A stretch of DNA of 44,312 nt, taken from positions 1 to 44,312 of IMG/VR virus record IMGVR_UViG_3300020171_000058; one strand, written 5' to 3'. The notes below the pieces were generated by a model. The model saw nothing but the letters and a program-made list of their open reading frames with translations. It had not been told where the DNA came from and ran no database searches. Position 1 is the stretch's first letter. Every line of letters starts with the position of its first letter. Source of the stretch: a virus. Positions 4,360-40,605 of the stretch are shown here, one piece after another. A program made the translations under genes and the position numbers.

Positions 4360-4452
4360 ATGATTAAACTTTTAACATTATTAGAATATCTACCACTTCG
4401 GTTTGCCTTGCGCCAATGGTGCTTTATTCTAAAGAAGTTGAAACTGATATGA
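4360..4452 (+). pseudogene. Degenerate partial copy of the membrane gene at 3889
   Basis: The first 18 bases (ATGATTAAACTTTTAACA) are identical to the start of the gene at 3889. The end, TTCTAAAGAAGTTGAAACTG, matches the bases around its stop (TTCTGAAGAAGTTGAAACTA). The middle does not match, so this looks like a duplication with the core replaced or deleted. A 30-codon frame remains open but overlaps a better leftward gene at 4424-4579. Confidence 0.5.
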
Positions 4453-4579
4453 CAGATTTAACTAAGTCCTCAAGCTCCTTGATTGCTCGGTCAATCTCTA
4501 TAAGCCCCTCTGCAATCTCCTGCCGGGCTATCTTCAATGTCAAAAGTGTTTTCAGAACTTCATCAGGATTGATTGACAC
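4424..4579 (-). CDS. Small coiled-coil protein, 51 aa, end of late operon
   Basis: A GTG-started frame gives an amphipathic helical protein (IARQEIAEGLIEIDRAIKEL) with regular hydrophobic spacing, typical of a coiled coil. It lies 12 nt after the membrane protein at 4592-4771 in the lysis-like cluster. The start context is weak. It could be a spanin- or regulator-like accessory, but there is no signal peptide or lipobox, so function stays open. Confidence 0.5.
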   Translation of the reverse strand: MSINPDEVLKTLLTLKIARQEIAEGLIEIDRAIKELEDLVKSVISVSTSLE

Positions 4580-4591
4580 TTCATTTACTCA

Positions 4592-4771
4592 CTAAGTGGT
4601 CAAGTTTTTATCGGTGAACCATATCCTCAGAATAGCATTGAGAATACCCAATATTAAAACCTGATATTGCGCTGGAAACCAGGTAAAGCCCTGTAACAAC
4701 TGCATAATAGCTATCAACGTTGCCACCACATTTAACCACAAAAGTTTTGACGACCACCATTTCTTATTCAC
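4592..4771 (-). CDS. Holin-like two-helix membrane protein, 59 aa
   Basis: Starts at a GTGA overlap with the stop of the gene at 4768-4992, behind GAGGGGG. Layout: a basic Trp-rich N-terminus (NKKWWSSKLLWLN), a hydrophobic helix (VVATLIAIMQLLQGF), a short turn, a second helix (YQVLILGILNAILRIWF), and a short polar tail. This size and pattern match small class II-type holins and related phage membrane proteins. It lies next to a zinc-peptidase-like gene and another membrane protein, which supports a lysis-module reading by inference. Confidence 0.6.
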   Translation of the reverse strand: MNKKWWSSKLLWLNVVATLIAIMQLLQGFTWFPAQYQVLILGILNAILRIWFTDKNLTT

Positions 4772-4992
4772 TTCTTTAATTCCCCCTCTATCTGGCTGAC
4801 TCTATCTGATAAAGTGTTACATTTATTGTGCATAGCCGACATATCAGTCTTACAGTTAGTCTGATGCTTATCAAAGAACTTGCACAACGTAGACACCGTA
4901 TTATTGATTTTGCCATAACCATAAGCTACCACAGCGACATTGACAACTACAGCTACCACTAATCCTATATAAGTACCAATAAATCCGTCCAC
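4768..4992 (-). CDS. Membrane-anchored small protein, 74 aa
   Basis: The N-terminus holds one long hydrophobic helix (FIGTYIGLVVAVVVNVAVVA). A polar, helical C-terminal part follows (LSDRVSQIEGELKK) that may form a coiled coil. The topology fits a holin-associated or antiholin-like protein. It lies downstream of the HExxH gene and is coupled to the two-helix protein. Confidence 0.6.
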   Translation of the reverse strand: MDGFIGTYIGLVVAVVVNVAVVAYGYGKINNTVSTLCKFFDKHQTNCKTDMSAMHNKCNTLSDRVSQIEGELKK

Positions 4993-5012: not shown

Positions 5013-5555
5013 TCAAAATAATTTAGGATAAAACAGCTTTAATTCAGTCATCATGGACTGTCCTAAATACCTGTAAATTTCAGCGTGCATTTCAACCATG
5101 CTGGTTAATGAATACGGCTTTTGCTCACGCAATAAAACCAGTAAAGGCGCACCAATAACACTATCATAGGCTAGAATGAAATCCTGTTTTTGTTGCTCAG
5201 TTAGTAAGGCATAGCTGATATGCGCCATTTCATGCGCCAACACCCCCTGATTCACCCACTGAGGGTTAATCCTCATGTGCTTCGTTTCTGCTATGGTATC
5301 GGCTACACTTACCTTTGTAGTAACTTCTATCTTTACTGTATTCCAAAATTTTATATACTTGTCAGGCACATCCCATTGGACAAACCACTCTAACTTAATA
5401 TCCTCAATAGTTCTGGCAGATGTACCTGATGCTTCCTCTGGATGCGGTAATGTTAGAGGCACAACGATGACAGGCGGTATAGGCGGTACTAATGGCTTAT
5501 CTTTACCGAGTATTATCTTAATAAATTCTATTATAGCCTGAATAAATGTTCTCAT
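5013..5555 (-). CDS. HExxH zinc metallopeptidase-like protein in the lysis-type cluster
   Basis: Residues 108-112 read HEMAH inside LAHEMAHISYALL, the zinc-binding helix of metallopeptidases. About 43 residues on, VEMHAEIYRYLG offers glutamates that could be the third ligand, as in gluzincins. The N-terminus has a short hydrophobic helix (FIQAIIEFIKIIL) and a Pro/Val-rich linker, suggesting membrane attachment. It stands where a phage endolysin often lies, followed by two membrane proteins. I see no other lysin in the window, but the substrate (peptidoglycan or protein) cannot be told. Confidence 0.65.
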   Translation of the reverse strand: MRTFIQAIIEFIKIILGKDKPLVPPIPPVIVVPLTLPHPEEASGTSARTIEDIKLEWFVQWDVPDKYIKFWNTVKIEVTTKVSVADTIAETKHMRINPQWVNQGVLAHEMAHISYALLTEQQKQDFILAYDSVIGAPLLVLLREQKPYSLTSMVEMHAEIYRYLGQSMMTELKLFYPKLF

Positions 5556-8931: not shown

Positions 8932-10253
8932 TAACCAAACCTCATCGGTATACTCGGGGTAGCCATAGCTAAATGAGCCAGCCTCATATATTCGGCATAT
9001 GCGTCAATACTAGCCTGTCTGAATTTAGCTACATCCTGACTTGAAACAGGTTGTGAGTACCGATTGTAATATAAATATTTAGCGTAGGCTATCAGCATCG
9101 GTACTCTGTGCTGGTCAATCACAATGGCATCGGTAGACGCACTCAAAGCCGTAAATGGCGCACTACCGAATAATCTGATTCTGTATTCATCACTCAGAGT
9201 ATCTTCTATCCTGAGCCACTTGTTTGCACCATCATTTATTACATACCCCTGAATATCTACCCATTCCTGTGGAGCTATAATATCACACGCCTCTTCATCC
9301 TCTTCATACTCTTCATTCTGGACTTGCACACTTTCTACTAATCCGTCATTCAAGACTTCTGGTAACATATATTCATGGACTGTTAAGCCAATTAAACGTG
9401 CATCGTCAAAGTAGACAGATTGAGAAAGAGACGTTATTCCAAACCTTATTTCACAATCTACAAGGTCGTCATTCAATACTTGGTCTTCAAGTGTAATTAA
9501 AGTCCACGTTGTTATTAAAGATACGGTTGTTGAGGTTAATGTCTGAGTAGTACCCGCCGAGTTTTTAGTATATATTTGAATAAAAGCATCATTGGCTTTC
9601 GTGCAATATACCCATACTTTTATAGTTACCGTTTGTCCTGATAAGTCAAGTAAACGTGGATAGTTGGCTGTGGTTAGTTTTATATATGCACCCGCACCGC
9701 CAGCACCAGTAGTAGCTTTCATAGACTTCGTGCCACCACGCTTGATTGTAGTTTCCTCTACACTTGTGATATTTGCACTTGACACAGCATATTTATCTGG
9801 TACGGTAGTCAAAGTCCAATCTTCAAAGTGAGCATTGGGTAGAACGTTACCTGTTATTAATATCTGATTGTCTATCCGTTTATGAAGTGCATATGCCGTC
9901 TCTCTGATAGCATCATTCAAAGCCTTAACCCGATCAGTCCTGCGATAGCGTGATACCTGAACGGTAGCTTGTGTACCATCACCAGCAGTTAAAGCCACAC
10001 CATAGATGGTAAGTGCACCTGTAGATGTTGTATACGCAGAGACACGTCTTTCAACGCCGGAATTGTTAGTAGAAGTTACAATATAAACCCACCAGTTTTT
10101 GAAGCAATCATCGCCAGCAAAGTCAAAACTTCTCAGTTCGGTTGATATAATAGAATTATTATTTGTGAGTAAAGTAGTAGTGGTAAACGGTAGATAATCC
10201 CCCTGAGATTCCTGTAAGCGAGTATCTAGTGTTGCCAGAGTAAGCGAATCCAT
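8931..10253 (-). CDS. Putative head-tail adaptor with carbohydrate-binding-like insert, 440 aa
   Basis: The N-terminal part (residues 1-135) and the C-terminal part, with a long helix (VPMLIAYAKYLYYNRYS), fit adaptor/gatekeeper proteins that include helical bundles. Between them, residues about 135-285 run from LPNAHFEDWTLTTVPDKY to YFDDARLIG, a pattern typical of CBM-like jelly-roll domains. An acidic stretch (EEYEEDEEACD) follows. It is the second protein in this pair with such an insert. Start ATG at 10253. Assignment by context. Confidence 0.55.
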   Translation of the reverse strand: MDSLTLATLDTRLQESQGDYLPFTTTTLLTNNNSIISTELRSFDFAGDDCFKNWWVYIVTSTNNSGVERRVSAYTTSTGALTIYGVALTAGDGTQATVQVSRYRRTDRVKALNDAIRETAYALHKRIDNQILITGNVLPNAHFEDWTLTTVPDKYAVSSANITSVEETTIKRGGTKSMKATTGAGGAGAYIKLTTANYPRLLDLSGQTVTIKVWVYCTKANDAFIQIYTKNSAGTTQTLTSTTVSLITTWTLITLEDQVLNDDLVDCEIRFGITSLSQSVYFDDARLIGLTVHEYMLPEVLNDGLVESVQVQNEEYEEDEEACDIIAPQEWVDIQGYVINDGANKWLRIEDTLSDEYRIRLFGSAPFTALSASTDAIVIDQHRVPMLIAYAKYLYYNRYSQPVSSQDVAKFRQASIDAYAEYMRLAHLAMATPSIPMRFG

Positions 10254-36471: not shown

Positions 36472-36855
36472 ATGTCAGTCAAAACACAGGAAGCTAAAGA
36501 CGCCGCCGACAAAGCATGGCAGGAAGCTACAGACGCCGCCGACAAAGCACGGCGGGAAGCTACAGCCCCCGCCGACAAAGCATGGCGGGAAGCTACAGCC
36601 CCCGCCTACAAAGCATGGCGGGAAGCTACAGACGCCGCCTACAAAGCACGGCAGGAAGCTACAGACGCCGCCGACAAAGCATGGCGGGAAGCTACAGCCC
36701 CCGCCTACAAAGCACGGCGGGAAGCTACAGACGCCGCCGACAAAGCACGGCGGGAAGCTACAGCCCCCGCCTACAAAGCATGGCGGGAAGCTACAGACGC
36801 CGCCGACAAAGCATGGCAGAGAAAAAATGTCAGTCAAAACAATAATCATCTGTGA
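36472..36855 (+). CDS. Alanine-rich 11-residue (hendecad) repeat protein, 127 aa
   Basis: After MSVKT the protein is ten copies of an 11-residue unit such as REATDAADKAW, then QRKNVSQNNNHL. Eleven-residue repeats favour a straight or slightly right-handed coiled coil. Aromatic residues (Trp or Arg at unit end, Asp or Tyr at position 8) recur in register. Ribosome site AGGAAAGGAA. It may be structural or a host-binding protein. The ribosome site could also serve the short gene at 36827, of which this seems an expanded version. Confidence 0.55.
   Translation: MSVKTQEAKDAADKAWQEATDAADKARREATAPADKAWREATAPAYKAWREATDAAYKARQEATDAADKAWREATAPAYKARREATDAADKARREATAPAYKAWREATDAADKAWQRKNVSQNNNHL
36487..36816 (+). 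repeat. 33-bp tandem repeat array, ten units
   Basis: Ten units of exactly 33 bp, each of the form CGGGAAGCTACAGACGCCGC and so on. Units differ at only four spots: CAG/CGG, GACGCC/GCCCCC, GAC/TAC and ATGG/ACGG, mixed in mosaic order. Such patterns arise by unequal crossing-over or gene conversion. The array keeps all three plus frames and one minus frame open. Confidence 0.9.
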
Positions 36856-38162: not shown

Positions 38163-39254
38163 ATGCCAGTCTACTGCACTAGAGCAGAGGTCAAGAAGCT
38201 AGTCAGATTCAGCCGTTGTGCGGTATGCCAGGGCAAACTGATAGCGTTCCTTGATGCGGAAACGAAACAACCATTCGTGGCTTGTGCGGACTGGCTGAGA
38301 ACAGGACACTTGGGCATTACCAGTCATAATTTAGAGTATGAAAAATATATGAAAGAAAGAAAGGAGATGTATAAAATGGATACAAAGGCGTTAATGGTTA
38401 TGACCGAAACTCATATGATGGCAAGGATAAATATGGCAAAATTCCCGCAAGAACTAACTATACCAGAAAAGAAGTTATTGGCGCAAATCGCTATTACCTA
38501 CGGCTTTGACCCGCTCATGGGCGAAGTCACTATCTATCAGGGTAGACCGTTTGTTTCCATTGATGGCAGATACCGCAAGGCGCAAGAGACTAATCGGTTG
38601 GATGGTGTTGAAAGCCGACCCGCAACCAAACAGGAGCGTATTGACTGGCAAATACCTGATGGTGATTACTTCTTTTGTGCTGCGGTATCAGTCAAAGGAG
38701 CATCAAAGCCTTTTGTTGGATGGGGTAGAGTGCATAATGCCGAGACCGTTGGCGGAAAGGGTTTTAAGCCAGTTGAAAAGAATCCGCAACGTATGGCTGA
38801 AAAGAGAGCCGAGGCACAGGCATTGCGTAAGGCGTTTCATATTCCATTACCAAGTGCTGAGGACATCGGTTCTCCTGATAATGAGGTTATCGGAAATATT
38901 AACGTCAAGACAGGGGAGATTACCGTTGAAGGTGAGTGCAAAGAGATACCCACCGAAACAGCCCAGCCAGTAGCAGAACAGCCCAAAGCACCTGAAAGTA
39001 CCACAGCAACGAAGGCAGAGCCACAAACACTCGCCGAGAAAGCCTTTGACGGACTACAGAGTGCTGGCAGTAACAAGGCGCCGGCTGATTTAGGTAAACT
39101 CTATCTTTGGATTATGGCGAATGTCAAGGACAAAAAGGTCAATGCCAAACAGTACGCTTTGAGTTGCGGCGTCAGCGAGGAAGACCTGCTACATAACGTG
39201 GCGAAGGCTTACGAAGAGATAAAAAGGCAGAATCCAGATTGGAAGGCATTATGA
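38163..39254 (+). CDS. recT: RecT-family single-strand annealing protein with N-terminal zinc domain
   Basis: From residue 72 (MDTKALMVMTETHMMARINM) the protein has the RecT core: KKLLAQIAITYGFDPLMGEV, YQGRPFVSIDGRYRKAQE, VGWGRVHNAETVGG and PQRMAEKRAEAQALRKAF. The first 71 residues are a Cys domain (FSRCAVCQGK, then VACADWL and HLGI). Both the ATG at 38163 (AAGGAG) and ATG at 38376 (AAGGAGATG) have ribosome sites, so long and short forms may both be made. It anneals complementary single strands in phage recombination. No exonuclease partner is adjacent. Confidence 0.85.
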   Translation: MPVYCTRAEVKKLVRFSRCAVCQGKLIAFLDAETKQPFVACADWLRTGHLGITSHNLEYEKYMKERKEMYKMDTKALMVMTETHMMARINMAKFPQELTIPEKKLLAQIAITYGFDPLMGEVTIYQGRPFVSIDGRYRKAQETNRLDGVESRPATKQERIDWQIPDGDYFFCAAVSVKGASKPFVGWGRVHNAETVGGKGFKPVEKNPQRMAEKRAEAQALRKAFHIPLPSAEDIGSPDNEVIGNINVKTGEITVEGECKEIPTETAQPVAEQPKAPESTTATKAEPQTLAEKAFDGLQSAGSNKAPADLGKLYLWIMANVKDKKVNAKQYALSCGVSEEDLLHNVAKAYEEIKRQNPDWKAL

Positions 39255-39538
39255 AAAATATAACATCGGAATACACAATAGTAGATAAAAACGATATACC
39301 CGATGGTGGTCATAAGGGAGGCATAAAATATAGACCGATATTTGATAATCTTCCTGATGATAAAGCAATGGAATTTATATACGACACTAAACAAGAGGCT
39401 ACTGATAGACGAATAAATATTCTTGCTTGTATGGGTTATTATAAATTAGATTATCGGATTCGTACTCGTGTCATTCCCGATGGTGATAAGTTCATACTCT
39501 ATGCTTGGAAGGAAAAGAAAGTTGCAGAGGTAAAATAA
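39251..39538 (+). CDS. Hypothetical protein, 95 aa
   Basis: ATGA overlap with the RecT stop, so ATG 39251 is preferred over 39239. Alpha/beta sequence (MEFIYDTKQEATDRRINILA, KFILYAWKEKKVAEVK) without known motif. Confidence 0.6.
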   Translation: MKNITSEYTIVDKNDIPDGGHKGGIKYRPIFDNLPDDKAMEFIYDTKQEATDRRINILACMGYYKLDYRIRTRVIPDGDKFILYAWKEKKVAEVK

Positions 39539-39539
39539 A

Positions 39540-39722
39540 ATGAAAGCAGAACCATTTAAGTTTGGCGACCCAGTCCGAGACCCTGGGGGCAAGGAAGGCA
39601 AGGTTATAAAAGTGCTTGACCCTAAAGTTTTTCTGTATGAATATGATGTTAAATTTCCAGATGGGTGGTCAGCCTTTTATATGGGGCATGAACTTACTAA
39701 AATAGAACCAAAAGTACCTTAA
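39540..39722 (+). CDS. Small beta-barrel-like protein, 60 aa
   Basis: Starts 1 nt after the previous stop. The sequence FKFGDPVRDPGGKEGKVIKV then YEYDVKFPDGWSAFYMGHEL looks like an SH3-like or KOW-type barrel. Role unknown. It is the last gene before the structured RNA. Confidence 0.6.
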   Translation: MKAEPFKFGDPVRDPGGKEGKVIKVLDPKVFLYEYDVKFPDGWSAFYMGHELTKIEPKVP

Positions 39723-39732
39723 TAAAATAGAG

Positions 39733-40190
39733 TGCTTTGCTGGTATCTTGTATATCGGACAACCGCTTGTTAATGCCGAATCGCTGTCAGGGTGGATATT
39801 TGAAGCTCTGCCAGGAATAGCAAAGACGCAAACATGACAAGCATGTATAAAAGTTCTAGCCAGCAAAAAAGTTCTTGCCAGCCACCCGAAGATGCTCCTT
39901 AGTGAGTGGATGCACGAAAGTGTGCTAGGGATAGTGGAAGTTAGGCCTATCTTGTGGGTATAGAGTCCCATAGGGTTGGACTACTGGCTGGTCAAGGCTC
40001 TCGGGTGTCAGACGAGAATTATATCGGCTCATACGTCGGGAGACTACGCAGGGTAATCCTCTGCTATAGAGTCAGGGAGCCGAGCCTGAGAGCGGGCAAA
40101 GAGGGGACAGCAAGGCAAAAGAGTCAAAGCCCTAGCAGGGGCGACAAAACGCCACAGTCTCTTAGCCAGTTCCCTCTAGCCCAGAGTGAA
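39733..40190 (+). ncRNA. Large structured non-coding RNA candidate, about 460 nt
   Basis: No gene fits this GC-rich stretch. Nested helices: CTTTGCT (39735-39741) with AGCAAAG (39819-39825); ACATG with CATGT (39832-39846); CCTA..TGGG with CCCA..TAGG (39946-39974); ACTGGCT (39983-39989) with AGCCAGT (40164-40170), which encloses GCTCTC (39997-40002) with GAGAGC (40088-40093), which encloses CGGCTC (40025-40030) with GAGCCG (40077-40082), which encloses GCAGGG..CCTCTGC (40048-40064). GGCG/CGCC caps a loop at 40140-40153. Size and branching recall the large ornate RNAs of phages, such as ROOL and GOLLD, without a recognised match. Confidence 0.6.
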
Positions 40191-40200
40191 AGGAGAATCC

Positions 40201-40359
40201 ATGACAATTTGCAGACCAAAGAAACTAAACCGCAAACTTCGCCACTTGACCAGAATAATTAAGAACGCTCGTAATGAAGCTAAAGCATTTCGGGATGAGG
40301 CGACCTATCATCAAGCCGTTATAGACTCAATATTCCCCAATAAGGGCTACCCAGAATAA
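40201..40359 (+). CDS. Basic small protein, 52 aa
   Basis: Behind GAAAGGAGAA, immediately after the RNA element. The product is very basic (MTICRPKKLNRKLRHLTRII...) followed by helix (NARNEAKAFRDEATYHQAVI). Such basic peptides often bind RNA or DNA; binding to the adjacent RNA is a possible but untested idea. Confidence 0.6.
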   Translation: MTICRPKKLNRKLRHLTRIIKNARNEAKAFRDEATYHQAVIDSIFPNKGYPE

Positions 40360-40371
40360 AGGAGAAACATT

Positions 40372-40605
40372 ATGAATTTGACGCCAGAAAATAAAGCACA
40401 CATTGACAAGTTAAGTTACCAAGCACTCTTATCAAGTTGGCGATTCGCACCAGTAGGCGATAAATGGTTTCAAGGCGAAACTGGTGACTATTGGTCAAAG
40501 CGGATGCGTGAATTAAGGGAACAAGGAGCAGACCATGTTGGAGCATCAAAAGCAATCGGTTGGGAGAATCATGGAAGCGAAAGAACCAACAGGAGAACAG
40601 ATTAA
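40372..40605 (+). CDS. Conserved phage protein of unknown function, 77 aa
   Basis: Behind AAAGGAGAA. The pattern LTPENKAHIDKLSYQALLSS then WRFAPVGDKWFQGETGDYW occurs in many unrelated phage accessory regions as a conserved hypothetical family. Aromatic and Gly residues suggest a small compact fold. Function unknown. Confidence 0.75.
   Translation: MNLTPENKAHIDKLSYQALLSSWRFAPVGDKWFQGETGDYWSKRMRELREQGADHVGASKAIGWENHGSERTNRRTD

Follow-up and report, generated by a model that had tools for sequence, protein, structure and literature searches.

A modular family of structured phage RNAs in recombination operons, with a divergent member in a viral record

We describe a family of phage RNAs that is built from up to four stem-closed domains, A to D, strung end to end in a fixed order. 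The DNA analysed here is a viral record of 44,312 nt, called the window throughout, and it carries a stretch of about 450 nt that consists of four such contiguous domains, the first two of which are members of the family. The family is well supported by covarying helices in domains A, B and D. It is absent from Rfam 15, and no description of it was found in the open-access literature. On balance we favour the view that the stretch is a divergent member of this A-B-C-D family, an untranslated RNA operon that would be transcribed under host Nus antitermination and would act in trans.

Results

Genomic context

The features of the locus are collected in Table 1. The initial annotation of this DNA had described a large structured RNA in a GC-rich region without genes. 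That description holds: no gene is found between the TAA of the upstream gene and the ATG at 40201, the GC content is about 0.50 compared with 0.36-0.43 in the flanks, and the structure is borne out by covariation among homologues and by model matches in the window. Two open reading frames do cross the stretch (39954-40262 on the plus strand and 39669-39971 on the minus strand), and neither has a relative in about 390 fetched loci; the 52-aa downstream gene has none there either. A conserved protein-coding frame had been named as evidence against an RNA, and none runs across the region. We rejected a coding explanation of the stretch, since the overlapping frames are not conserved. Scans for sigma-70 promoters and terminators near the array gave matches at chance level only. 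Elsewhere in the window, an open reading frame at 36472-36855 contains imperfect repeats (REATAPADKAWREAT...) and has a weak YqjK-like match; long open frames are also present there in another forward frame and on the opposite (minus) strand.

Table 1. Features of the window in and around the structured stretch
Feature	Position	Strand	Remarks
Bet/RecT-like ssDNA-annealing protein gene	38163-39254	+	Upstream, same operon; PHROG 252, E=4.9e-7; Pfam RecT, 4.3e-5
Small upstream gene, 60 aa	39540-39722	+	3′ end inside the boxA-like motif
CCTTAATAAAATAG	39717-39730	+	Degenerate, shortened copy of the boxA-like leader (C)YTTAACAAYTRAATAG; contains TAA 39720-39722 of the upstream gene
Non-coding stretch	39723-40200	+ (operon)	Between the 60-aa gene and the 52-aa gene
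Domain A	39735-39868	+	Closing helix 39736-39744 / 39859-39867 (UUUGCUGGU/GCCAGCAAA)
Domain B	39873-39996	+	Closing helix UCUUGCCAGCC(A) 39873-39884 / (U)GGCUGGuCAAG 39985-39996
Domain C position	39997-40093	+	GCUCUCGGG 39997-40005 / CCUGAGAGC 40085-40093
Domain D position	40094-40182	+	AGAGGGGAC 40100-40108 / GUUCCCUCU 40169-40177
Small downstream gene, 52 aa	40201-40359	+	Ribosome-binding site AAAGGAG

Domains of the RNA in the window

Domains A and B of the window are recognised by covariance models that were built without it. Model R2 matches domain A at 39736-39867 (21.2 bits, E=0.0018 in 611 kb) and model R1 matches domain B at 39875-39994 (28.6 bits, E=1.6e-5 in 627 kb; E=5.5e-6 in a smaller search of 215 kb). 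In the family the signatures of these domains are CUUGCUGGUGUCC...RCCGAGCCAGCAAG for A and GCCAGCYACCCGAAAGG...CUACURGCUGGC for B; the conserved CCACCCGAAG of domain B is present in the window at 39882-39891. Domains C and D directly adjoin, follow B without a gap and both fold as closed domains. Within C there is an inner helix, CGGCUC 40025-40030 / GAGCCG 40077-40082, and by position and shape alone this domain is the equivalent of family domain C (GCCUGAGCCGAGG...GGCUCAGGC). Domain D has an outer helix, GGGC/GCCC (40094-40097/40179-40182), and a GCCAG just inside its 3′ strand, like family D ((A/G)CCAGCCCC); its homology to family D is likewise drawn from position and shape.

Thermodynamic support for the structure is weak. 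The folding energy of the whole stretch has a z-score of -1.79, with 7 of 100 shuffles folding equally well, and for the single domains z is -1.9 (A), -2.1 (B), -1.3 (C) and -2.4 (D). The real support is comparative, and comes from the sequences of the relatives described below. Two short sequences occur twice, TATAGAGTC at 39959-39967 (domain B) and 40065-40073 (domain C), and GACTAC at 39979-39984 (domain B) and 40042-40047 (domain C), and alternative pairing is possible in both cases. A group I intron core was also considered for the P7-like AGACUA / AUAGAGUC near 40042-40073 and rejected: no complementary P3 was found by eye and there was no Rfam intron match.

The helices quoted in the initial annotation all exist in the places given for them, while their proposed deep nesting gives way to a linear chain of four independent domains. 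The helices GCTCTC/GAGAGC and CGGCTC/GAGCCG fit domain C; their enclosure by ACTGGCT/AGCCAGT does not survive. This supposed outermost helix is probably wrong, because ACTGGCT (39983-39989) pairs in homologues with the GCCAGC(C/T) of domain B and not with AGCCAGT (40164-40170), and its assignment to B breaks the outer helix. The supposed pseudoknot, AGAGGG with CCCTCT (40100/40172), is nothing other than the helix that closes domain D. The two near-identical 14-nt motifs are found at 39849-39866, which is the 3′ side of the A helix (AGCCAGCA), and at 39867-39884, which is the 5′ side of the B helix (TTGCCAGCC); the duplication is explained by the one following the other.

Search for relatives

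The phage is isolated, its best terminase relatives being less than 50% identical. With the region as query, blastn against 50,697 phage records found nothing, and the arrays of two relatives used as queries did no better; RecT as a probe yielded no relatives and the pattern AAAAGTTCTWGCCAGC chance matches only. A blastn search of 50 terminase-relative records with the region yielded a single weak match (L051, E=0.02), at a non-coding stretch with AGCCAGCATCAAAGCCAGCCACCCGAA...CTACTGGCTGGC, and a motif scan of the fetched loci found the same plan in a second terminase relative, L053. Compared by eye, the A helix reads UUUGCUGG/CCAGCAAA in the window and CUUGCUGG/CCAGCAAG in L053, and the outer B helix reads CUUG/CAAG in the window and AA/UU in L051. 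Pattern scans derived from this comparison recovered several dozen members in uncultured viral contigs, plus two in contigs of Dehalococcoidia MAGs. Two of these scans, with 100 and 120 matches, returned mostly chance or coding matches, which were discarded, and a final scan for near relatives of the window's domain B found previously known members only.

Domain B was present in one of 400 sampled Chloroflexota genomes. Among 198 relatives of that genome, two gave convincing matches to domain A, and these are the two MAGs already known; four weak R2 matches in other Chloroflexota genomes (23-28 bits over 19-44 nt) were treated as chance. Given this rarity of A and B among the sampled genomes, the array RNA is not a common cellular RNA. 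It does not belong to a known family either: across the window and 13 homologous loci no Rfam 15 family, group I and II introns and riboswitches included, reached its gathering threshold, and at E<=10 over 39500-40400 there was no GOLLD, ROOL or OLE and no relevant match. ARAGORN found no tRNA or tmRNA in the window. The initial annotation had thought of a class like GOLLD and ROOL or a new one; a class outside Rfam is what we find, and membership of GOLLD, ROOL or OLE, for which the window and the same 13 loci gave no match, is not.

Family anatomy and covariation

In the family, domain A takes the form CUUGCUGGUGUCC ... AUCGGY ... RCCGAGCCAGCAAG and domain B the form CUGCCAGCYACCCGAAAGGG (a GAAA-capped hairpin) ... 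CUACURGCUGGCAG, followed by domain C, GCCUGAGCCGAGG ... UAGGCUCAGGC, and domain D, GUGGGGUG ... CAGCCCCAC. The order is fixed and each domain is optional, with two unclear cases (L051 and L365). Neighbouring closing helices abut, with gaps of -1 to 2 nt between A and B in most arrays and mostly 0-5 nt between B and C and between C and D.

Covariation among homologues was examined, as had been proposed at the outset, and compensatory changes were found. Both sides change in 7 of the 13 pairs of A (33 cells, compared with 11.5 +/- 3.1 when shuffled and at most 7 when slid), in 6 of the 13 pairs of B (38 cells, compared with 16.9 +/- 4.3 and at most 4) and in 5 of the 9 pairs of the D closing helix (21 cells, compared with 5.9 +/- 2.0); slid controls are near zero. 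Domain C is strongly conserved, and its outermost pair alone covaries. The alignments were fitted to the structure or selected by complementarity and most members were found via patterns that fix core letters, which partly builds in the invariance of those letters. We therefore place weight on the pairs that vary, e.g. pair 9 of domain B, which is UA in 22 cases, CG in 16 and UG in 4, with one exception.

Some loci hold a single A or B unit alone (L149, L355, L357, L193 and L161). In the first three of these the unit is followed by terminator-like hairpins before a structural-type gene, which suggests that such units are free RNAs. In two arrays (L165:985-1460 and L213, minus strand, 4441-4874) the position of domain B, between A and C, is taken by a short protein-coding gene that has a ribosome-binding site of its own.

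The related arrays lie within recombination operons, between ssDNA-annealing and exonuclease genes. They are downstream of annealing-type genes (RecT/Bet in the window, Sak4-like in L196), and exonuclease genes (phrog_298, phrog_2139) often follow them; in many other arrays the large gene family that lies upstream had no family match. The downstream genes vary, from small unknown genes through several exonuclease types to structural-type genes. Comparison of the sequences establishes the domain order, the missing coding frame, the recombination-gene context and the presence of a leader motif in relatives and in host rRNA.

A boxA-like leader

The motif TTAACAAYTRAATAG is found within 35 nt upstream of domain A in 17 of 40 arrays, compared with 26 of 12220 control windows (0.2%); the other 23 sampled arrays have no recognisable leader motif within that distance. 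It also precedes tRNA-like units that head arrays (L347, L348 and L302). In the window the match is weak, with four differences from the TTAACAAYTRAATA core, and here, as in several relatives, the stop codon of the preceding gene overlaps the motif.

The exact 17-nt form of TTAACAAYTRAATAG occurs in 4 of 41 Dehalococcoidia genomes, adjoining the 16S rRNA every time. In the two genomes for which both 16S ends were read, the motif forms the leader of the 16S rRNA, with its complement in the trailer, and the host 16S leader of L389 is CCTTAACAATTGAATAG, a single change from the 17-nt form. At two Dehalococcoidia 16S loci (L389 and L390) the boxA-like motif sits inside the leader-trailer processing helix. 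The published boxA consensus is GYTCTTTAANA (PMC5725501), and CUUUAACA fits it. BoxA occurs upstream of untranslated RNAs and raises the expression of long CRISPR arrays (PMC7862264). A boxA function of the leader motif is likely. The motif itself is our ground for proposing that Nus antitermination takes place there and may persist at the degenerate copy in the window. It could instead be a processing signal, a reading consistent with the part that the host copy takes in the 16S leader-trailer helix. From the related arrays and the leader motif we infer that the host of the window's phage may be a member of the Dehalococcoidia, for which few phages are known.

tRNA-like units

Units resembling tRNA-Leu, with acceptor, D-arm-like and T-arm-like parts, occur in or beside the arrays of L347, L348, L213 and L208. 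The first (L347:1037-1124, minus strand) is called tRNA-??? by ARAGORN and carries a GAGA tetraloop where the anticodon loop would be. The others (L348:6864-7060; L213, minus strand, near 5150-5275; L208, minus strand, near 765-895) have T-arm-like hairpins and a larger domain in place of the anticodon arm. Another locus (L158, minus strand, near 9548-9620) has a tRNA-shaped element between A and B, with acceptor CUAGGGGG and T-arm GGUUCGAGUCC, that ARAGORN does not call.

Discussion

In the explanation that we favour, a chain of up to four stem-closed domains, set end to end within 0-5 nt, is embedded in a recombination-gene operon. A boxA-like leader, copied from that of the host 16S rRNA, would be the loading site of the host Nus complex (NusB/S10 with NusA and NusG), so that RNA polymerase could pass through this folded, untranslated segment and escape termination by Rho. 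The RNA would then fold into stable domains that work in trans during phage takeover, singly or as one chain, and in some relatives the domains would be made together with tRNA or tRNA-Leu-like units. We suggest action in trans because the units are independent, the downstream genes variable and the single units terminator-ended; stability and processing of the RNA are similarly presumed. The degenerate leader in the window, the matching of its C and D domains by position and shape, and the modest folding energies all weigh against this explanation.

An unlikely competitor is a single large ornate RNA like GOLLD or ROOL, whose domains fold together and may form a multimer or cage, with the optional domains peripheral. 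The strict domain order and the 0-5 nt junctions suggest coaxially stacked helices, domain B has a GAAA tetraloop hairpin, and the phage setting near tRNA-like units is as for GOLLD and ROOL (PMC12286853). However, the lone A or B units and the open reading frames that replace B in L165 and L213 imply that a complete chain is not needed, and none of the domains is shared with the GOLLD, ROOL or OLE models. We think it somewhat less probable again that the stretch is a cis-acting leader or inter-gene element, controlling translation or stability of the downstream gene or insulating parts of the operon. In the window and most relatives it does immediately precede a ribosome-binding site with its start codon, and upstream stop codons often overlap the motif. 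Yet the downstream gene differs among arrays, and this argues against a leader tailored to a single gene; moreover, the ribosome-binding site is not overlapped by any shared structure and some arrays end in terminator-like hairpins (L149, L355 and L357).

The tRNA-Leu-like units point towards mimicry of host stable RNA. A broader version, slightly more doubtful than control in cis, is that the arrays are phage mimic operons under a host rRNA leader signal, whose RNAs imitate or descend from host stable RNAs: the tRNA-Leu-like units without a normal anticodon arm and four derived domains would then be decoys or scaffolds against translation or a tRNA-targeting defence. That the stretch is a local GC-rich region whose helices arose by chance and which has no function as RNA, as its modest whole-stretch z-score might suggest, is very improbable and already disfavoured by the family-wide covariation and the independent model matches in the window.

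GOLLD and ROOL are large structured phage RNAs of unknown function, often beside tRNA genes and without a protein product (PMC12286853). The array RNA is also large, structured, phage-encoded and non-coding. It differs in having no Rfam match, in being a linear chain whose domains, each about 60-130 nt long, are optional but fixed in order, and in often being led by a 16S-leader-like motif, between recombination genes and in a different host group. With rRNA leaders and boxA-led CRISPR arrays it shares an untranslated RNA after a boxA-type motif, here the host 16S leader motif, but the RNAs downstream consist of structured domains specific to the phages instead of rRNA or CRISPR repeats, and the arrays showed no counterpart of the 16S trailer that is complementary to the motif. 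Phage tRNA arrays are likewise short stem-closed units tightly in tandem in a phage operon, and some of our arrays include tRNA or tRNA-like units, whereas domains A to D keep a fixed order and lack both T-arm and anticodon arm.

In summary, this work adds a phage RNA family outside Rfam whose modular grammar is clear and which is supported by covariation. It also connects large phage RNAs with an expression mechanism that can be tested, in which the leader of host rRNA (boxA) would be borrowed to transcribe untranslated RNA. As the units occur alone, paired and in full chains, each can be studied separately, which is less easy in GOLLD and ROOL.
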